From IMG/VR virus record IMGVR_UViG_3300046751_000386, positions 1 through 57,960 of that record: 57,960 bases of DNA. One strand, written 5' to 3'. Origin of the DNA: a virus. Position 1 is the first letter of the stretch; each line of letters opens with the position of its first letter. The notes beneath the pieces are model-generated. The model was not told the origin of the DNA. It ran no database searches and worked only from the letters and a program-made list of their open reading frames with translations. Below are positions 12,360-57,960 of this stretch, one piece after another. A program made the translations under genes and the position numbers.

Positions 12360-12436
12360 TTTAAATATTGTGTATTCTTTTGTTATCCCTGACAGGCGCA
12401 TGATGTGTCTGACACTAGCCACGACAGGAGTATAAC

Positions 12437-12985
12437 ATGGCTAATACAACTTTTTCGGGTCCGGTTCGTTCCGAAGGCGGATTTCAAGTCGTTTCCAAAA
12501 ACGCTACTACGGGCGCACTTACCACTGTTGCAAACACCGCTTCTACAGGAATTGTTACTAACAAGTATGTAAAGCATGTTGGTTTTGCCACGGGAGTTAC
12601 AGTAAACACTACTGCGGGTGATAGCCCTACGATTGGTGAATTTACACAACCAGCAAACACAATCATTACGGACATTAAGATCTTTTGTGATACGTCGCCT
12701 GTAATCGGCACGGGAGATATTGGTTATGAGGTTGGGACTTCTAGCTCTGGCGCACAGATTGTTGCGGCTCAGACTGATGAAATCTTAGACGGCGGTACAA
12801 CTGTTGTTGAGCATAACGTAACTGTAACCTCGTTGGTTTTGCAAACTCAGGACGGCACTACTGCTCCGGCCTCGGTTCAATACACTTCGGCAGAACGTAC
12901 AATCTTCTGTAACATCACCAACACGGTTGACGCCACTACCGCGGGTTCGTTTACGTTCATCATTGAGTATGTGCAGATTGCATAA
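12437..12985 (+). CDS. Virion structural protein (182 aa)
   Basis: It begins ANTTFSGPVRSEGGFQVVSK, a start seen in many marine phage virion proteins (from memory). The composition is Thr/Val/Gly/Ser-rich with almost no helix-forming charge pattern, so a beta-sandwich is likely. RBS is CAGGAG. It follows the capsid terminator and precedes a similar gene. Head fibre or decoration is the likely role. Confidence 0.65.
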   Translation: MANTTFSGPVRSEGGFQVVSKNATTGALTTVANTASTGIVTNKYVKHVGFATGVTVNTTAGDSPTIGEFTQPANTIITDIKIFCDTSPVIGTGDIGYEVGTSSSGAQIVAAQTDEILDGGTTVVEHNVTVTSLVLQTQDGTTAPASVQYTSAERTIFCNITNTVDATTAGSFTFIIEYVQIA

Positions 12986-39604: not shown

Positions 39605-41058
39605 CTTAACCACCCCTTAACTTCTTCACCCAGTACTTTGCCTGCTAGGCTTACCTTGTCGCGCAACGCGTTCAAAACCTTCTCGTCAATCGTATTAGGG
39701 GAAACTATGTCGATATAAGTTACCGCTTTAGTTTGACCAATCCGGTGCGCCCTGTCCTCACTCTGTAAGCGTATCTCCAGATCGTAGCTGTTGCTGTAGT
39801 AGATCACAGTGCTAGCCGCCGTCAGAGTAATGCCATAACCGCCCGTCTTGGGCTGACCCACAAAGAACCGCAGCGGGCTGTCGGGGTCTTGGAACTCCTC
39901 AACAATCTCCTGTCTGCGGTCCTGCGGCGTCTCACCGTAATAAGTTGCGACCGAATCGGGCCCGAAACGGTCGCGCAGGGCATGTGCTATCCGTTGGAGG
40001 TCGTTAGTGTACGTCGCCCAAATGATAGCCTTCCCCGAAAGCTCGTCTGTTATATCCATTAACTCTGGCAGACGGTTGTTCTTTAGTTCCTGTAAATCCC
40101 CCACGTCAGGCTGAAACGATCCGCAGCATATCTGTTGGAGCCGCATGATCTGTGTCAGAACACTGGTTGTCGTGGCAATGTTGTCATCATTGAGATGCGC
40201 CAAAGCCAATGACTTCATCTGATCGTACACCCTGCTTTGCTCCGTGGTCAACGGAACGCGGCGCTTTATGTACAGTTTCTCAGGTAAATCCAAACAATCC
40301 TCTTTTAACGTGCGGGTGCTGAACCCCAACAGACGCTCGTTTAGTTCGTCCAACCTACGGTATCCCGTTATCTCCTGAAAGCTGCGCGAACCCATTACAC
40401 GCTTCTGCGTAATCGCGTAGCGGCTCTGGAACGCGTAAAAGCTGGCAAAGCCCAAAGAACTCGGATCAAGGAACCTGCACTGACTGTAGAGGTCCAACGG
40501 GGACTTTGTAATCGGGGAGCCTGTCAGAATGCGCCTGTACTTAATGTACGGGTTTAACGCCATCAGGTTCTTGGTACGCTGGGCGTTGCGGTTTTTTATC
40601 GTGGTGCTTTCATCAACAACAGCCATGTTCTCGGGATTGGCTACCAGAAAACGTCCCGCGGCCCGCGTACCTCGGGGCGATGAGAACGCTTCGACGTTCA
40701 TTACAAAAAGTTTTAATCCGTCAAACGGGTCATCAATAAACGTATCCAGTTCCTCGGAGTAGCGTTTGGATGTGGCGGGCGTCCACCGCATAACTTTGCG
40801 CTTTATAGTGTCTGGCAAGTGTGCGGGTATTTCGCCCTGCACCCAGTTGTCGTAGACACCCTTGGGCGCTACAATTAGTGCCGCGTTTAGGTCACCTTCT
40901 ATATATAGTACACCTATATTATCTATGGCGACTTTAGATTTACCCGTTCCCATTTCCATAAAGTACGCGTGGTACGTTTTGTACCACGACTCTTCTAGTG
41001 CGTCACGCTGATGGTTGAAGGGCTGCGTCTTAAAGTCGTAATCTATCTGTTCCAACAT
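39601..41058 (-). CDS. SNF2-like DEAD/H helicase
   Basis: The only gene on the reverse strand, 485 aa from the ATG with GGAGAAC upstream (a longer in-frame start at 41115 would cover the promoter). Superfamily 2 motifs: FMEMGTGKSK (Walker A, about 33-42), VVDEST (Walker B, about 147-152), RILTGSPI (motif III, 176-183) and QSEDRAHRIGQ with IDIVSPNTIDEKVL near the C-terminus, as in SNF2/RapA-type translocases. Its stop overlaps the stop of the convergent virion lysin gene. It diverges from the replication operon and probably remodels DNA or displaces proteins during replication. Confidence 0.9.
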   Translation of the reverse strand: MLEQIDYDFKTQPFNHQRDALEESWYKTYHAYFMEMGTGKSKVAIDNIGVLYIEGDLNAALIVAPKGVYDNWVQGEIPAHLPDTIKRKVMRWTPATSKRYSEELDTFIDDPFDGLKLFVMNVEAFSSPRGTRAAGRFLVANPENMAVVDESTTIKNRNAQRTKNLMALNPYIKYRRILTGSPITKSPLDLYSQCRFLDPSSLGFASFYAFQSRYAITQKRVMGSRSFQEITGYRRLDELNERLLGFSTRTLKEDCLDLPEKLYIKRRVPLTTEQSRVYDQMKSLALAHLNDDNIATTTSVLTQIMRLQQICCGSFQPDVGDLQELKNNRLPELMDITDELSGKAIIWATYTNDLQRIAHALRDRFGPDSVATYYGETPQDRRQEIVEEFQDPDSPLRFFVGQPKTGGYGITLTAASTVIYYSNSYDLEIRLQSEDRAHRIGQTKAVTYIDIVSPNTIDEKVLNALRDKVSLAGKVLGEEVKGWLS

Positions 41059-41074
41059 TTGTTCTCCTACGGGG

Positions 41075-49808: not shown

Positions 49809-49985
49809 ATGGATACTACAAAATGGAAATCAGTCCTCGTTCCGGTCGAAGTTTACCGCGAATTGAAGATTTTATCGGCTATCGAAGGCCGCACAATCAG
49901 CGGACAGCTACGCTTTATGTTTGACCAATACAGCAAACTGAAGTCCGTTCGAAATAAGCTCAAGCAACACTACGAAGAAGCTTGA
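49809..49985 (+). CDS. Ribbon-helix-helix-like small regulator (58 aa)
   Basis: Start ATG 49809 is chosen from the promoter position and gene size; an in-frame upstream ATG at 49632 lies inside polA. The sequence WKSVLVPVEVYRELKILSAIEGRTISGQLRFMFDQY has the strand-helix-helix pattern of RHH DNA-binding proteins. It is monocistronic with its own promoter and may be an autoregulated repressor. Its stop codon TGA forms part of the next TTGACC box. Confidence 0.65.
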   Translation: MDTTKWKSVLVPVEVYRELKILSAIEGRTISGQLRFMFDQYSKLKSVRNKLKQHYEEA

Positions 49986-50010
49986 CCACTCCCATATTAT
50001 CGCGTATGTA
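49982..50010 (+). promoter_or_regulatory. Promoter of the candidate small RNA
   Basis: TTGACC (49982-49987) overlaps the upstream stop codon; a 17-nt spacer leads to TATGTA (50005-50010). Twenty-one of 29 bases match the promoter at 54779, including CTCCCATAT in the spacer. Confidence 0.55.
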
Positions 50011-50015
50011 ATATG

Positions 50016-50095
50016 TATCTCCTCATGAGATATTAATGTTTGTTCTCCAATAAACATTGAACCCTCACCGAAATACCCGCGGTGAGGGTTTTTTC
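50016..50095 (+). ncRNA. Candidate phage small RNA with anti-Shine-Dalgarno loop
   Basis: A transcript from the promoter at 49982 to the terminator at 50060-50095 would be about 80 nt and carries no ORF. Hairpin 1 is a perfect 7-bp stem, AATGTTT (50035-50041) with AAACATT (50052-50058). All ten loop bases, GTTCTCCAAT (50042-50051), are the exact complement of ATTGGAGAAC, found at the ribosome binding sites of the genes at 1255 and 55559; seven bases of it match nine leader genes. ATGTTTGTTCTCC (50036-50048) is complementary over 13 nt to 50154-50166, the SD and start codon of the next gene. It could also be the 3' UTR of the RHH gene mRNA. Confidence 0.5.
50060..50095 (+). terminator. Intrinsic terminator
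   Basis: AACCCTCACCG pairs with CGGTGAGGGTT (11 bp, 9-nt loop), followed by TTTTC. It lies before the promoter of the next gene. Confidence 0.92.
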
Positions 50096-50107
50096 TTGTA
50101 TTTGTAC

Positions 50108-50136
50108 TTGACTATCTCGTATAGTTGGTTTATCTT
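50108..50136 (+). promoter_or_regulatory. Promoter of the ParB-like gene operon
   Basis: TTGACT (50108-50113), 17-nt spacer containing TATAG, TATCTT (50131-50136); the ATG follows 28 nt later behind GGAGAAC. Confidence 0.65.
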
Positions 50137-50164
50137 AGCTTTACTCAACCAAAGGAGAACAAAC

Positions 50165-51004
50165 ATGCTTGAGTCACGCTTTCTTGATAAAGCAGCCGCA
50201 ACAGAACTGCTTAGTAATAACTGGTATAAAAACCGTAAAATCCACAGAGGCATTAAAGATCAACACGTTAAAGACCTCGCGGCAAAGATCACACAAGGCC
50301 GCTGGGTTGTAGATGCAATGGAAACGCCTATTCTAATTGATACAGACGGTATTTTATATAACGGTCAAAATAGATGTATGGCTGTAATTCTCGCTGACCA
50401 AGGTGTAGTGGTGCAGTGCCGCATAGAGTCGCCGGAAGAGTGCCAAAGACTGTACGCGTCTCTGGACCTTGGCAAAGCCCGATCAATCGCAGACATTACA
50501 GGATTAAACCAAAGCAACATAGTGCAGCCCATACTCTACCTCATGCGCTGCGCGGGCCTTGATGGACGGCTTAAAGATGAAGCCGTCGTATCGCGGATCG
50601 CGGATACTTACATGGGAGATATCCTGCGCCACTTCGATCAGAACACCCGTTGGGTAAAAAACAATCGGTGCTTTAATTCTGTTCAATTTAAGGCCGCAAT
50701 GGCGTACTGTGTTCATAGGCGGGTATTGCCCGATTATGAAGCTATCTCGGTGCTTGAAATGTTGCAGAACAACAAAGACTACCACTGGCCTTCCATGTAT
50801 TTAAACTACCGCGAACAGATCGTGTTTCCAAACGGTAAGCTAAATACTAGCGGTAAGAACGTAGCAAACGATAAGTTCTGCCGAGGCGTTTATCTGATCG
50901 AACGCCGCATGAAACATCAAAGCAAAATTCAAATATCCAGCGGATTTCTGGATGACCTTGCTTCAAACGTTCGCCGCGTGATTAGCTTGGCTGCTGCCGA
51001 ATGA
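50165..51004 (+). CDS. ParB/sulfiredoxin-like fold protein (279 aa)
   Basis: ATG 50165 follows GGAGAAC and the promoter; an upstream in-frame ATG at 50057 would cover the terminator and promoter. The N-terminal half has the pattern 'NRKIHRGIKDQHVKDLAAKITQGRW', 'PILIDTDGILYNGQNRCMAV', like ParB-type N-terminal domains of phage proteins that bind DNA or nucleotides. The C-terminal half is helical. Its ribosome binding site is complementary over 13 nt to the candidate small RNA. First gene of a run of overlapping small genes. Confidence 0.7.
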   Translation: MLESRFLDKAAATELLSNNWYKNRKIHRGIKDQHVKDLAAKITQGRWVVDAMETPILIDTDGILYNGQNRCMAVILADQGVVVQCRIESPEECQRLYASLDLGKARSIADITGLNQSNIVQPILYLMRCAGLDGRLKDEAVVSRIADTYMGDILRHFDQNTRWVKNNRCFNSVQFKAAMAYCVHRRVLPDYEAISVLEMLQNNKDYHWPSMYLNYREQIVFPNGKLNTSGKNVANDKFCRGVYLIERRMKHQSKIQISSGFLDDLASNVRRVISLAAAE

Positions 51005-51219
51005 ATTATAAGATAGAAAAAAACATCCCCCTTCCCGCGTCACAGCGGAAAGGGAAGTTCGCTATCTTAGAGGACTTGGAAGTTGGCGACAGCTTTCATG
51101 TTGCAGATGTAACCGCGCCAGCGGGCATCTATTCAAAAGCAGAGAGCCTCGGGATTAAAGTAACCGTGAGAAGCATCCTACACCCTAGCGGCGGCTTCAG
51201 AGTTTGGAGAATCGAATGA
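51001..51219 (+). CDS. Small conserved phage protein (72 aa)
   Basis: ATGA overlap with the upstream gene. The pattern 'IEKNIPLP', 'LEDLEVGDSFHV' and a C-terminal 'GFRVWRIE' resembles small phage proteins of the DUF7303 type (from memory), probably a small beta-rich, DNA-associated fold. Function unknown. Confidence 0.7.
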   Translation: MNYKIEKNIPLPASQRKGKFAILEDLEVGDSFHVADVTAPAGIYSKAESLGIKVTVRSILHPSGGFRVWRIE

Positions 51220-52984: not shown

Positions 52985-53008
52985 AAGTAACCCCAATGGA
53001 GAACCATT

Positions 53009-53344
53009 ATGAAAGCCCGAATAAACATCACACAACGGATGCTCAACAAAAGCATTATAGACGCCAATAAAAGCGTCGTAGCGTTCGTTAGAAATTGCTA
53101 CCCAACACTGGGATACGACTTCATAGAAAATGGGGGCAAAAACACCCTTTTAGCGTACTATGACGATGGTCACGAATATACAACGACCAGCATACGATTG
53201 TACCGCCGACCGCGGGGCGATAAACTTATGTCCGTTTGGGGGCTGACAAGACGCGCCAAAGCAGGAGACACAATGACTTTCGAGCATGACAAGGAAAGCA
53301 ACAGAATAATCGTCCGGCTCGAACTGGGAGAAGATATAGAATAG
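53009..53344 (+). CDS. Hypothetical basic protein (111 aa)
   Basis: ATG 4 nt after GGAGAACC. Mixed alpha/beta, basic in its middle (RLYRRPRGDKLMSVWGLTRRAKAGD), a part that recalls small DNA-binding pseudobarrels. It ends right at a hairpin without T-run and before the large non-coding region. Function unknown. Confidence 0.65.
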   Translation: MKARINITQRMLNKSIIDANKSVVAFVRNCYPTLGYDFIENGGKNTLLAYYDDGHEYTTTSIRLYRRPRGDKLMSVWGLTRRAKAGDTMTFEHDKESNRIIVRLELGEDIE

Positions 53345-54447: not shown

Positions 54448-54796
54448 GCCCCAGTTAAGCCTGACTAGAATAGAAAACTCTGTCGGTCAGGGCATACCCG
54501 ACCTTATGATCTGCGATGAACGCGGGCTATTTCATTTTGTAGAATTAAAGTTTTGCAAGGCCAATGCGGTACGGTTAAGCCCGCACCAAGTTTCTTGGCT
54601 AACGAGGCACCGACACAGTAGCAGTTGGATATTGGTTAAGCAGCATCAGAACTGGGGGAAAAAACCTGTCGTTCTTTTGTATCGTGCGGATCAGGCAATA
54701 GCGGTCAAAACAGACGGGCTAAAGACCGATCCGGTGTATGAAGGCACAAATCCTTTTGATTGGCCTGTTCTTTTCGACTTGATTTCTCCCATATAA
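54356..54796 (+). CDS. VRR-NUC-like PD-(D/E)XK nuclease (146 aa)
   Basis: ATG behind AAAGGA, starting 92 nt inside the small terminase gene. The nuclease core has RIENSVGQGIPDLMIC (E40, D49) and HFVELKFCKANAVRLSPHQVSWL (E63, K65, Q78), the G-PD...E-K...Q set of VRR-NUC and Holliday-junction-resolvase-like enzymes. Likely resolves branched DNA before packaging, which fits its overlap with terS. Confidence 0.85.
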   Translation: MAQTLSTLPQPKIPTEAAFYQQLRTAAKKVRPQLSLTRIENSVGQGIPDLMICDERGLFHFVELKFCKANAVRLSPHQVSWLTRHRHSSSWILVKQHQNWGKKPVVLLYRADQAIAVKTDGLKTDPVYEGTNPFDWPVLFDLISPI

Positions 54797-54807
54797 TCGC
54801 ATATACT
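54779..54807 (+). promoter_or_regulatory. Promoter inside the end of the nuclease gene
   Basis: TTGATT (54779-54784), 17-nt spacer with CTCCCATATAATCGC, TATACT (54802-54807); the next ATG is at 54837 behind GGAGAAC. Close relative of the promoter at 49982. Confidence 0.7.
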
Positions 54808-54836
54808 CTAAGGGTTAGCTAAATGGAGAACATGCT

Positions 54837-55518: not shown

Positions 55519-55558
55519 CTTTTATAGATATGGGACATTGCATATATTGGAGAACGCT

Positions 55559-56503: not shown

Positions 56504-56554
56504 TTGATTATATATGCGAGGTTCTATATGAAGGGGGCGGGGCAATCCTGCCCC
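56504..56554 (+). promoter_or_regulatory. Promoter and 5' leader hairpin (family member c)
   Basis: TTGATT (56504-56509), 17-nt spacer, TATGAA (56527-56532). GGGGCGGG (56534-56541) pairs with CCTGCCCC (56547-56554, one wobble) around GCAAT, the same loop as at 1219. GGAGAAC lies at 56564. Confidence 0.6.
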
Positions 56555-56575
56555 TTTAACTTTGGAGAACGTAAA

Positions 56576-57703
56576 ATGTCACATTCAATCGAAAACTCAA
56601 ACAACAGTTTAACCCAGCTAATGCAACAGGTCCAAGACCAAGCCGCCCGCAAGGCTGATTTTTTGACCCCTACAAATGATCTGCAAAAGATCACCAATTC
56701 AGAAACAAACGAACCAATATTAGTTATTGAAGCAAAAGGCGGCGAACCTACCCGCCATTTAAAAATAAACAACGTAGCTTTCCAACAGCTAGCCGCGCAT
56801 TGCGACATTGAGGCCCGCACGGCCCGCCGCCTTCAAACACATTACCCTTTTGAGTTCGACAATCTGATTAACGCTCACTTTGATCAAGAGCCTAAGCGGA
56901 AAATGCTTCGTACTTTTCTCGACACCGACGAAACGAACGGCACCGCCCGAGCGTTGCTTTCCGACAGGTTTAAGTGTTTTGATAATGATAATATGATCCA
57001 AACCATTTTGCCGCCGTTGATGGAAAACCCCGCGCAACTTCAGGTCGTGAACGCAAAAATTAGCGACAGCAAATTGTATATGCGGTTTAAAAGCCTTGTT
57101 CATACTGGGGCGGGTGCAAACGTGTCAGATGTAATGGCGAACGGTTGCGGCTTTTCTAACTCGGAGACGGGGCAGGGATCGGTGTCAGCTTACCAGCTTT
57201 TTTGGACCTTAGCATGCCTTAATGGCATGCAAACCGAGAACAAAACTCGGAGCAGCCATATCACCAGCGCGAGGGATAGTGACGATTGGGGCTTGTTATC
57301 GGGAGAGGCGCAGGAAGCCGATAATAGAGCCTTGAATTTAAAACTTCGTGATCTGGTGGAAGCATACAGCAGCCGCGAGATGTTTGACCAAGTGCTGGAC
57401 AAGATGAAAGCAGCAGCCGCCGACACAATCGAAGGCGAATATTCGGTTTCTGACACGGTTAACAATCTGGGAACCGTTATGCGTTTGACCAAAAAAGAAA
57501 CGTCAAATGTTCTTGACGGCCTTATGTCAACTATAGGGCAAGCGGGCTATGAGAACGACCGCCCATTGTCGCGGGCAACCTTTATCAACGCCGTGACAGC
57601 AGCGGGCAACAAATGTGATATTGACCAGACGGATGACTATCAACGCCTTGGGGGTCGTCTTTTGAATATGAACGCTCGAGATTGGAACCGCATAGCGGCT
57701 TAA
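56576..57703 (+). CDS. DUF932-like phage/plasmid protein (375 aa)
   Basis: Start ATG 56576 after GGAGAAC; an upstream in-frame start at 56504 would cover promoter and hairpin. The central region (LNDRFKCFDN-like 'LLSDRFKCFDNDNMIQTILPPL', 'VSDVMANGCGFSNSETGQGSVSAYQLFWTLACLNGM') matches the DUF932 pattern of phage, plasmid and prophage proteins whose role is not known. It is a single gene with its own promoter and leader, which suggests strong or early expression. Confidence 0.75.
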   Translation: MSHSIENSNNSLTQLMQQVQDQAARKADFLTPTNDLQKITNSETNEPILVIEAKGGEPTRHLKINNVAFQQLAAHCDIEARTARRLQTHYPFEFDNLINAHFDQEPKRKMLRTFLDTDETNGTARALLSDRFKCFDNDNMIQTILPPLMENPAQLQVVNAKISDSKLYMRFKSLVHTGAGANVSDVMANGCGFSNSETGQGSVSAYQLFWTLACLNGMQTENKTRSSHITSARDSDDWGLLSGEAQEADNRALNLKLRDLVEAYSSREMFDQVLDKMKAAAADTIEGEYSVSDTVNNLGTVMRLTKKETSNVLDGLMSTIGQAGYENDRPLSRATFINAVTAAGNKCDIDQTDDYQRLGGRLLNMNARDWNRIAA

Positions 57704-57741: not shown

Positions 57742-57763
57742 GGGGCAGGGGAAACCTTGCCCC
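57742..57763 (+). promoter_or_regulatory. 5' leader hairpin (family member d)
   Basis: GGGGCAGGG pairs with CCTTGCCCC (one wobble) around a GAAA tetraloop. TATT lies directly upstream; GGAGAAC follows at 57776 and the ATG at 57789. No clear -35 box. Confidence 0.55.
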
Positions 57764-57788
57764 TTAACTTTGTTTGGAGAACGAAAAA

Positions 57789-57960
57789 ATGGAACTAGCT
57801 AAAACAGACTACACCAATGAGACCGAGTTGAGAGCGGCGCGTGAAATGCTCGAACGCCGTGAAGTGGAAATAGCCCGCTTGCGTGAAGAGATGGAAGCAC
57901 TTCGAACCGTTAACCAAGAAAATGCTTTGATGCTGGACGATATACGCTTGCCCCTTTTTA
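57789..57960 (+). CDS. Coiled-coil protein, 5' part of the gene spanning the join
   Basis: ATG 57789 follows GGAGAAC and a GC-rich leader hairpin. The first 15 codons (MELAKTDYTNETELR) are unique to this end; from 57834 the sequence repeats bases 1-127 and the frame continues there to the stop at 370-372. The full protein is 138 aa. Confidence 0.85.
   Translation, partial: MELAKTDYTNETELRAAREMLERREVEIARLREEMEALRTVNQENALMLDDIRLPLF
57834..57960. repeat. Right copy of 127-bp direct terminal repeat
   Basis: Identical to 1-127. See the left copy. Removing one copy gives a circular sequence of 57,833 bp. Confidence 0.95.

Follow-up and report, generated by a model that had tools for sequence, protein, structure and literature searches.

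The phage whose genome makes up IMG/VR record IMGVR_UViG_3300046751_000386 likely encodes a small RNA (sRNA) that pairs with the Shine-Dalgarno (SD) sequences of its own early-gene regulon and probably blocks their translation. Transcription of this sRNA, its pairing in the cell and the repression are inferred. Shown at the sequence level are the existence and conservation of the unit, how many complementary sites the window (the whole stretch of 57,960 nucleotides that was analysed) contains and where they lie, and the co-evolution of the seed with the SDs of its targets.

The proposed sRNA unit and its predicted targets

On inspection of the sequence, positions 49982–50094 form a compact unit of a promoter, two hairpins and an intrinsic terminator without an ORF, which at the sequence level constitutes an independent transcription unit. 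The promoter (49982–50010, plus strand) comprises TTGACC at 49982–49987, a spacer of 17 nt containing TCCCATA, and TATGTA at 50005–50010, and is unchanged across all close relatives (class A, see below). A generic promoter scan of the window missed it because TATGTA lacks the final T, and the case for this promoter, inferred from sequence alone, is its conservation and not the scan. Hairpin 1 (50016–50032, plus strand; TATCTC ctcat GAGATA) differs among relatives. Its apex contains CUCC, which is not conserved (CTCTTC in L013–L017), and a second anti-SD role is therefore unlikely. Hairpin 2 (50035–50058, plus strand) holds the SD-pairing seed and consists of a 7-bp stem (AATGTTT at 50035–50041, AAACATT at 50052–50058) and the 10-nt loop GTTCTCCAAT at 50042–50051, the reverse complement of an extended SD common to about ten genes of the same phage. 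The terminator follows at 50062–50094 (plus strand; stem 50062–50088, then T6). The sRNA folds with z = −7.0, and 0 of 200 shuffles folded equally well. Rfam gave no match at the locus; the sole match in the window is a Mu-gpT-DE RNA (RF03012, 70.8 bits) at 12387–12439, just before gene 12437.

Directly upstream lies a gene for a small ribbon-helix-helix protein (49809–49985, plus strand; Pfam RHH_5, E 3e-5, under the curated cut-off), whose stop codon overlaps the −35 element of the sRNA promoter and whose position is kept in classes A and B. After the terminator, gene 50165 has a promoter-like site of its own (50108–50136, plus strand; TTGACT, 17 nt, TATCTT) that is kept in relatives. An earlier note on the window had described a promoter-hairpin-terminator unit without an ORF at 49982, which held with its coordinates confirmed; hairpin 1 and the promoter-like site of gene 50165 had been missed. 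A conserved-spacer promoter, TTGAN..TCCCATA..TCGC.TA, occurs in the window both at the sRNA (49982–50010) and before gene 54837 (54779–54807); in the relatives L047–L062, L065, L093 and L095 it also precedes the ribbon-helix-helix gene and the next gene. It may be the operator of a phage regulator, possibly of the ribbon-helix-helix protein.

Predicted target sites precede ten genes, all on the plus strand except one. The longest belongs to gene 50165, where GGAGAACAAACAT at 50154–50166 is complementary over 13 nt to 50036–50048, with a predicted duplex of −20.6 kcal/mol. Genes 1255 and 55559 carry TATTGGAGAAC (11 nt; 1237–1247 and 55545–55555), and the SNF2-type helicase gene 41058 on the minus strand carries GGAGAACAAA (10 nt; 41058–41067), in which GGAGAAC is contained; before orthologs of this helicase gene the motif was found only in class A. 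Matches of 9 nt are present before gene 56576, a member of phrog_1362, and gene 57789 (TTGGAGAAC; 56562–56570 and 57774–57782) and before gene 54837 (TGGAGAACA, with the TGGAGAAC match present; 54824–54832). Shorter ones are found before genes 53009 (TGGAGAAC, 8 nt; 52997–53004), 51216 (TTGGAGAA, 8 nt; 51204–51211) and 507 (GGAGAAC, 7 nt; 493–499). Predicted duplexes of the sRNA with the target leaders range from −14 to −21 kcal/mol. The earlier reading of the loop as an anti-SD thus held for all of its nine sites (TATTGGAGAAC at 1255 and 55559, TTGGAGAAC at 56576 and 57789, TGGAGAAC at 53009 and 54837, GGAGAAC at 507, 41058 and 50165), as did the 13-nt complementarity at gene 50165; the site of gene 51216, i.e. 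the tenth, had been overlooked. A short GC-rich hairpin precedes four of the target genes (regions 467–486, 1217–1234, 56539–56554 and 57742–57763), with a TTAACTTT-like or similar stretch between it and the SD. The letters of these hairpins differ between relatives while their shape is kept, e.g. before the ortholog of gene 56576 in G001.

Since the seed core CUCC complements any GGAG SD, the pairing is partly generic. The enrichment was determined with the SD core held fixed and only the flanks shuffled (300 shuffles): six start regions pair contiguously with the seed over at least 9 nt, compared with 0.65 expected and a shuffle maximum of four. Among 328 CTCC-anchored 15-mers genome-wide, the sRNA seed ranks first by the number of start-region matches at both ≥ 9 and ≥ 10 nt, and the runners-up include the antisense strands of the sRNA targets themselves. 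Matches of at least 8 nt occur in 8 of 40 start regions of the early and replication part (41–58 kb and 0–2 kb) versus 0 of 45 in the structural part (2–41 kb; Fisher p = 0.0016), and nearly all genes with the extended SD belong to the early module and none to the structural module. Gene starts were called by a simple ORF rule, which picked an upstream start for gene 56576 and omitted it, so that the counts are slightly low. Contiguous match counts were used in place of mean duplex energy, which discriminated poorly because GC-rich seeds pair better everywhere. Taken singly, the genomes G005, G006 and G010 showed no enrichment of seed matches in the core-fixed shuffle test.

We propose that 49982–50094 encodes an RNA of about 75–80 nt that would start near 50017 and end near 50094 under the control of its own promoter and terminator. 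The seed exposed on this RNA (loop GUUCUCCAAU, which can be lengthened to AUGUUUGUUCUCC) would pair with the extended SDs before about ten genes of the same phage, most of them early. A duplex that covers the SD, in gene 50165 up to the start codon, would block binding of the 30S subunit and most likely lower translation of the regulon, so that the sRNA would brake the expression of early genes or set its timing. Gene 54837, itself a predicted target, has the same promoter motif as the sRNA; the two may therefore be switched on together, which would fit such a brake or timer.

Seeds and Shine-Dalgarno motifs in related phages

Class A relatives were gathered by a search with the protein of gene 50165, the hairpin not being a selection criterion, and 15 of them had upstream sequence. 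The promoter and the seed hairpin are identical in all 15, whereas these relatives differ in hairpin 1, in the outer pair of the stem, in the terminator and in the distance to the following gene. Further class A relatives were added by pattern search; L023 and L034 were rejected as chance matches to the hairpin pattern without promoter and terminator. In L020, L026, L030 and L033 a non-homologous terminator of like shape takes the place of the usual one and a different gene follows, which in L020 and its kin likewise bears AAAAGGAGAACAAAATG; L032 has a third kind of next gene. Because terminator and neighbours are swapped with promoter and seed hairpin constant, the sRNA unit is a stand-alone gene and not part of one leader. 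The ortholog of gene 50165 is separated from the sRNA terminator by up to about 100 bp in most relatives. The insert of about 50–100 bp in L003, L007, L013 and L014, which the window lacks, holds a long palindrome (TCACGCTAACGACGTTAGCGTGA). Some class A orthologs of the targets are without the motif, i.e. target sets turn over even inside class A.

A search with the DNA polymerase yielded 80 loci down to about 67–68% identity, and most of those with enough sequence carry, near polA, an equivalent unit with a different seed. These units usually begin with TTGNN..TCCCATA..TA and end in a terminator, and the layout TTGAC..TCCCATA..TCGC.TA precedes the sRNA in classes B, C and D too. The seeds of the lineages are GUUCUCCAAU, ACAUUCUCC, GUUCUCCGUAGUUGA, CACUCCGUAGUA, UUCCCGUAGUAG and CCUUCGUAGUU. 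Class A has UUUGUUCUCCAAU in the loop, with one extra A in the variant A' (L045/L046), and class B (L047–L062) has ACAUUCUCCAAAUGU. In class C (L065, L080, L091, L093, L098, L104, L116) the hairpin GAACAUG..CAUGUUC is followed by UCCGUAGUUGA; the seed of class C2 (L096, L101) is GCACUCCGUAGUAA. Class D (L071, L075, L094, L095, L109 and others) has the hairpin UGUAAAGC..GCUUUACA and then GUUCCCGUAGUAG, and the seed of class E (L111, L113) is GCACCUUCGUAGUUGA. A contig from a genome collection (L170) represents a further variant, GUUAG UUCUCCG CUAAC. In classes C, D and E the seed is located in the linker between hairpin and terminator. The loop of class C varies freely with the seed fixed, the reverse of class A, and pairing is kept through changes on both sides of the terminator stems and of the class D hairpin. 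No DNA match to the class A, C or D units was found for cultured phages in the collections searched, and a partial scan of the polA neighbours DSL-LC04, 023Pt_psg01 and HTVC023P revealed no comparable unit in the stretches read.

Each class was scored against all six seeds by counting contiguous Watson-Crick matches of at least 9 nt in non-redundant start regions from whole contigs. Class A start regions matched their own seed 21 times, compared with 8 matches for the seed of B, 3 for C and none for C2, D and E. For class C, 15 matches to the own seed stand against 8 for its sister class C2, 2 for D, 1 for E and none for A and B; for class D, 16 against 5 for A, 2 for B, 3 for C, 1 for C2 and 2 for E. 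The numbers are smaller in class B (4 own; A 3, D 1, C, C2 and E none), class C2 (3 own; C 3, B 1, A, D and E none) and class E (1 own and none for the other five seeds). Among the 720 possible assignments of seeds to lineages, the true one scores best at each of the thresholds 8, 9 and 10 nt, whether or not one G-U pair is allowed. Support for classes B and E is thin, with few contigs that include the early region, and the permutation test involves few lineages of common ancestry, in which there were perhaps five independent seed changes. Sixteen further class D contigs, which played no part in defining the seed, contributed seven new start regions matching D at ≥ 8 nt versus 3 for C, 3 for C2, 1 for E and none for A and B.

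Orthologs with the same flanking leader swap their SD in step with the seed of their phage. In the DUF7227 family (Pfam; window gene 55783) the SD is TTGGAGAAC in class A, ACTACGGAG in C and TACGGGA in D, within leaders that read GATTGGAGAACGCT-ATG in class A (L014), CACTACGGAGGGCAAACC-ATG in C (G009), ATTACGGAGGGCAAACC-ATG in C2 and ATTACGGGAAATAGAAAA-ATG in D (G020). Members of the phrog_1362 family (window gene 56576) show TTTAACTTTTTGGAGAAC in class A, TTTTAACTACGGAGAA in class C, TTTAACTTTTACGGGA in class D and CAGCTACGAAGG in class E. Ahead of the SD they keep TTTAACTTT, and the SD itself reads TTGGAGAAC (A), AACTACGGAGAA (C), TACGGAG (C2) or TACGGGA (D); the class E form is AACAGCTACGAAGG. 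A small family of 97–124 aa has ACTACGGAG in C, TACTACGGAG in C2 and, in D, either CTACTACGGGA or CAACTACGGGA, depending on whether the sRNA reads GUAGUAG (G020) or GUAGUUGA (L171). The SD variants of this family track the sRNA variants, so that a change of one letter in the seed is mirrored by one letter in the flank of the SD. Covariation in relatives had been named in the earlier note as a check on its proposal of a trans-acting sRNA over an early-gene regulon; the outcome is strongly positive and supports the proposal, in which transcription and repression remain inferred and were not measured. The pattern that would have refuted it did not appear: among the related phages found, none had retained the extended SD and lost the loop complementarity, and in about six lineages seed and SD changed together.

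Rival readings

The earlier note had also considered that read-through RNA folds 50036–50048 onto 50154–50166 and so hides the SD of gene 50165, in which case the other matches would be by-products of a cis-acting leader. In its favour, this neighbouring gene has the longest match (13 nt), and the helix is present in the fold predicted for the joined RNA. However, gene 50165 lies behind a strong terminator and has a separate promoter, the unit is not kept beside this gene (inserts of up to about 100 bp, other neighbours in L020-type phages and L032), terminators are swapped with promoter and seed hairpin constant, and about ten distant matches show lineage-specific covariation. The cis-acting reading is thus disfavoured and appears very improbable. 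Equally hard to maintain is a general anti-SD agent directed against host mRNAs, for which the matches to phage SDs would be due solely to the GGAG core. The seed does contain CUCC, and anti-SD loops on multi-target sRNAs are known (PMC3927594), but the matches run past the core, and both the side of this extension and its letters are those of each phage's own seed; core-fixed shuffles fall short of the counts in class A and in several C and D genomes, and the swap test favours own seeds.

The repeated motif could instead be the DNA site of a protein, the sRNA locus merely holding one inverted copy. Short motifs repeated before genes are common in phages and a ribbon-helix-helix gene adjoins; however, the motif is placed at SD spacing from the start codons and includes the SD core, the sRNA copy is located in a loop or in the linker between hairpin and terminator, and the single-position covariation fits base pairing, so that we give this explanation very little weight. 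It is less easily dismissed, although still unlikely, that the sRNA pairs as proposed and thereby activates or stabilizes the mRNAs, or that the mRNAs act as a sponge for the sRNA. The direction of the effect cannot be read from the sequence, and the evidence for pairing is the same as for repression; against this reading, the pairing covers the SD itself and sometimes extends to the start codon (gene 50165). In characterized cases, pairing of an anti-SD sRNA over the SD blocks initiation. Repression remains our preferred reading. We further speculate, as no more than a possibility, that the pairs of seed and SD represent translational codes, each private to its phages and driven apart by conflict among phages. 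If this were true, a resident sRNA would silence the early genes of an incoming phage only when both share one code, lytic phages would form RNA-based immunity groups, and whole SD regulons would have been rewritten several times to leave such a group.

Relation to known systems

Anti-SD sRNAs with multiple targets are known from bacteria, e.g. SmelA075 and SmelA099 of Rhizobiales with CCUCCUCCC loops, RNAIII and RsaA of S. aureus, and AbcR1 (PMC3927594, PMC3961350). Like these, the unit described here has a C-rich seed in a loop or single-stranded region that pairs with the SDs of several mRNAs. The bacterial RNAs are encoded by cells, act on cellular targets and carry a generic anti-SD; in contrast, our unit belongs to a phage and is predicted to target genes of that phage, in which lineage-specific letters of the seed are matched. 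The c4 antisense RNA of phages P1 and P7 prevents translation by means of a looped sequence that base-pairs with a ribosome binding site of the phage, and its specificity differs between related phages (PMC12197685). However, c4 acts in temperate phages on essentially one gene, the antirepressor, whereas our unit is independent and directed to about ten dispersed genes; it fails the criteria for c4, having no Rfam match, its own terminator and targets dispersed over the early module. Other trans-acting phage sRNAs such as PreS of lambda have mainly host genes or other sRNAs as described targets (PMC12197685); our unit is likewise a predicted trans-acting phage sRNA, but its predicted targets form a regulon of the phage's own start sites.

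In the open-access literature searched, which excludes most subscription journals, no phage sRNA acting on a regulon of own start sites was found, and neither was one with lineage-specific co-evolution of seed and SD. Anti-SD sRNAs as such are known; a self-directed, lineage-specific code of seed and SD across a phage family appears to be new as far as this literature goes. If our proposal is true, a widespread marine phage group controls its early genes by one sRNA that reads a common extended SD, and offers a set of natural cases in which the seed of an sRNA was rewritten several times together with all of its targets. It would become testable how a multi-target sRNA changes its seed, the pairing having seemingly slid from the 3' side of the SD to its 5' side, and why some phages repeat SD motifs that exceed the need of the ribosome, a puzzle since the start-associated sequences (SAS) of mycobacteriophages were described in 2011.

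These SAS are extended conserved SDs of unknown role before many non-structural genes of cluster K mycobacteriophages (PMC3203893, PMC11373665). We rejected them as an instance of the same system: in an alignment of 11 phages, the reverse-orientation copy of Anaya is not kept where the SAS is kept, being absent in Ekdilam, Amgine, Keshu, SirPhilip and Marshawn, and none is present in the right arm of Pixie. The copy in Anaya (L158, 39871–39883) is a single SAS in reverse orientation within an intergenic GC-rich palindrome, which is kept in most of the aligned K1 phages and not in other phages of cluster K.

Relatives by polA were found in metagenome-assembled genomes (MAGs) labelled Flavobacteriaceae, Verrucomicrobiales, Rhodobacteraceae, Maricaulis and Pirellulaceae and in one Pelagibacteraceae assembly; as these labels are inconsistent, no host was assigned. 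The polymerase of the window phage, which bears the Mu-gpT-DE RNA, is nearest to those of DSL-LC04 and HTVC023P-type phages. The window has a direct terminal repeat of 127 bp (1–127 identical to 57834–57960), and the record is therefore probably a complete genome of about 57.8 kb, circular or terminally redundant, in which gene 57789 runs on across the ends.
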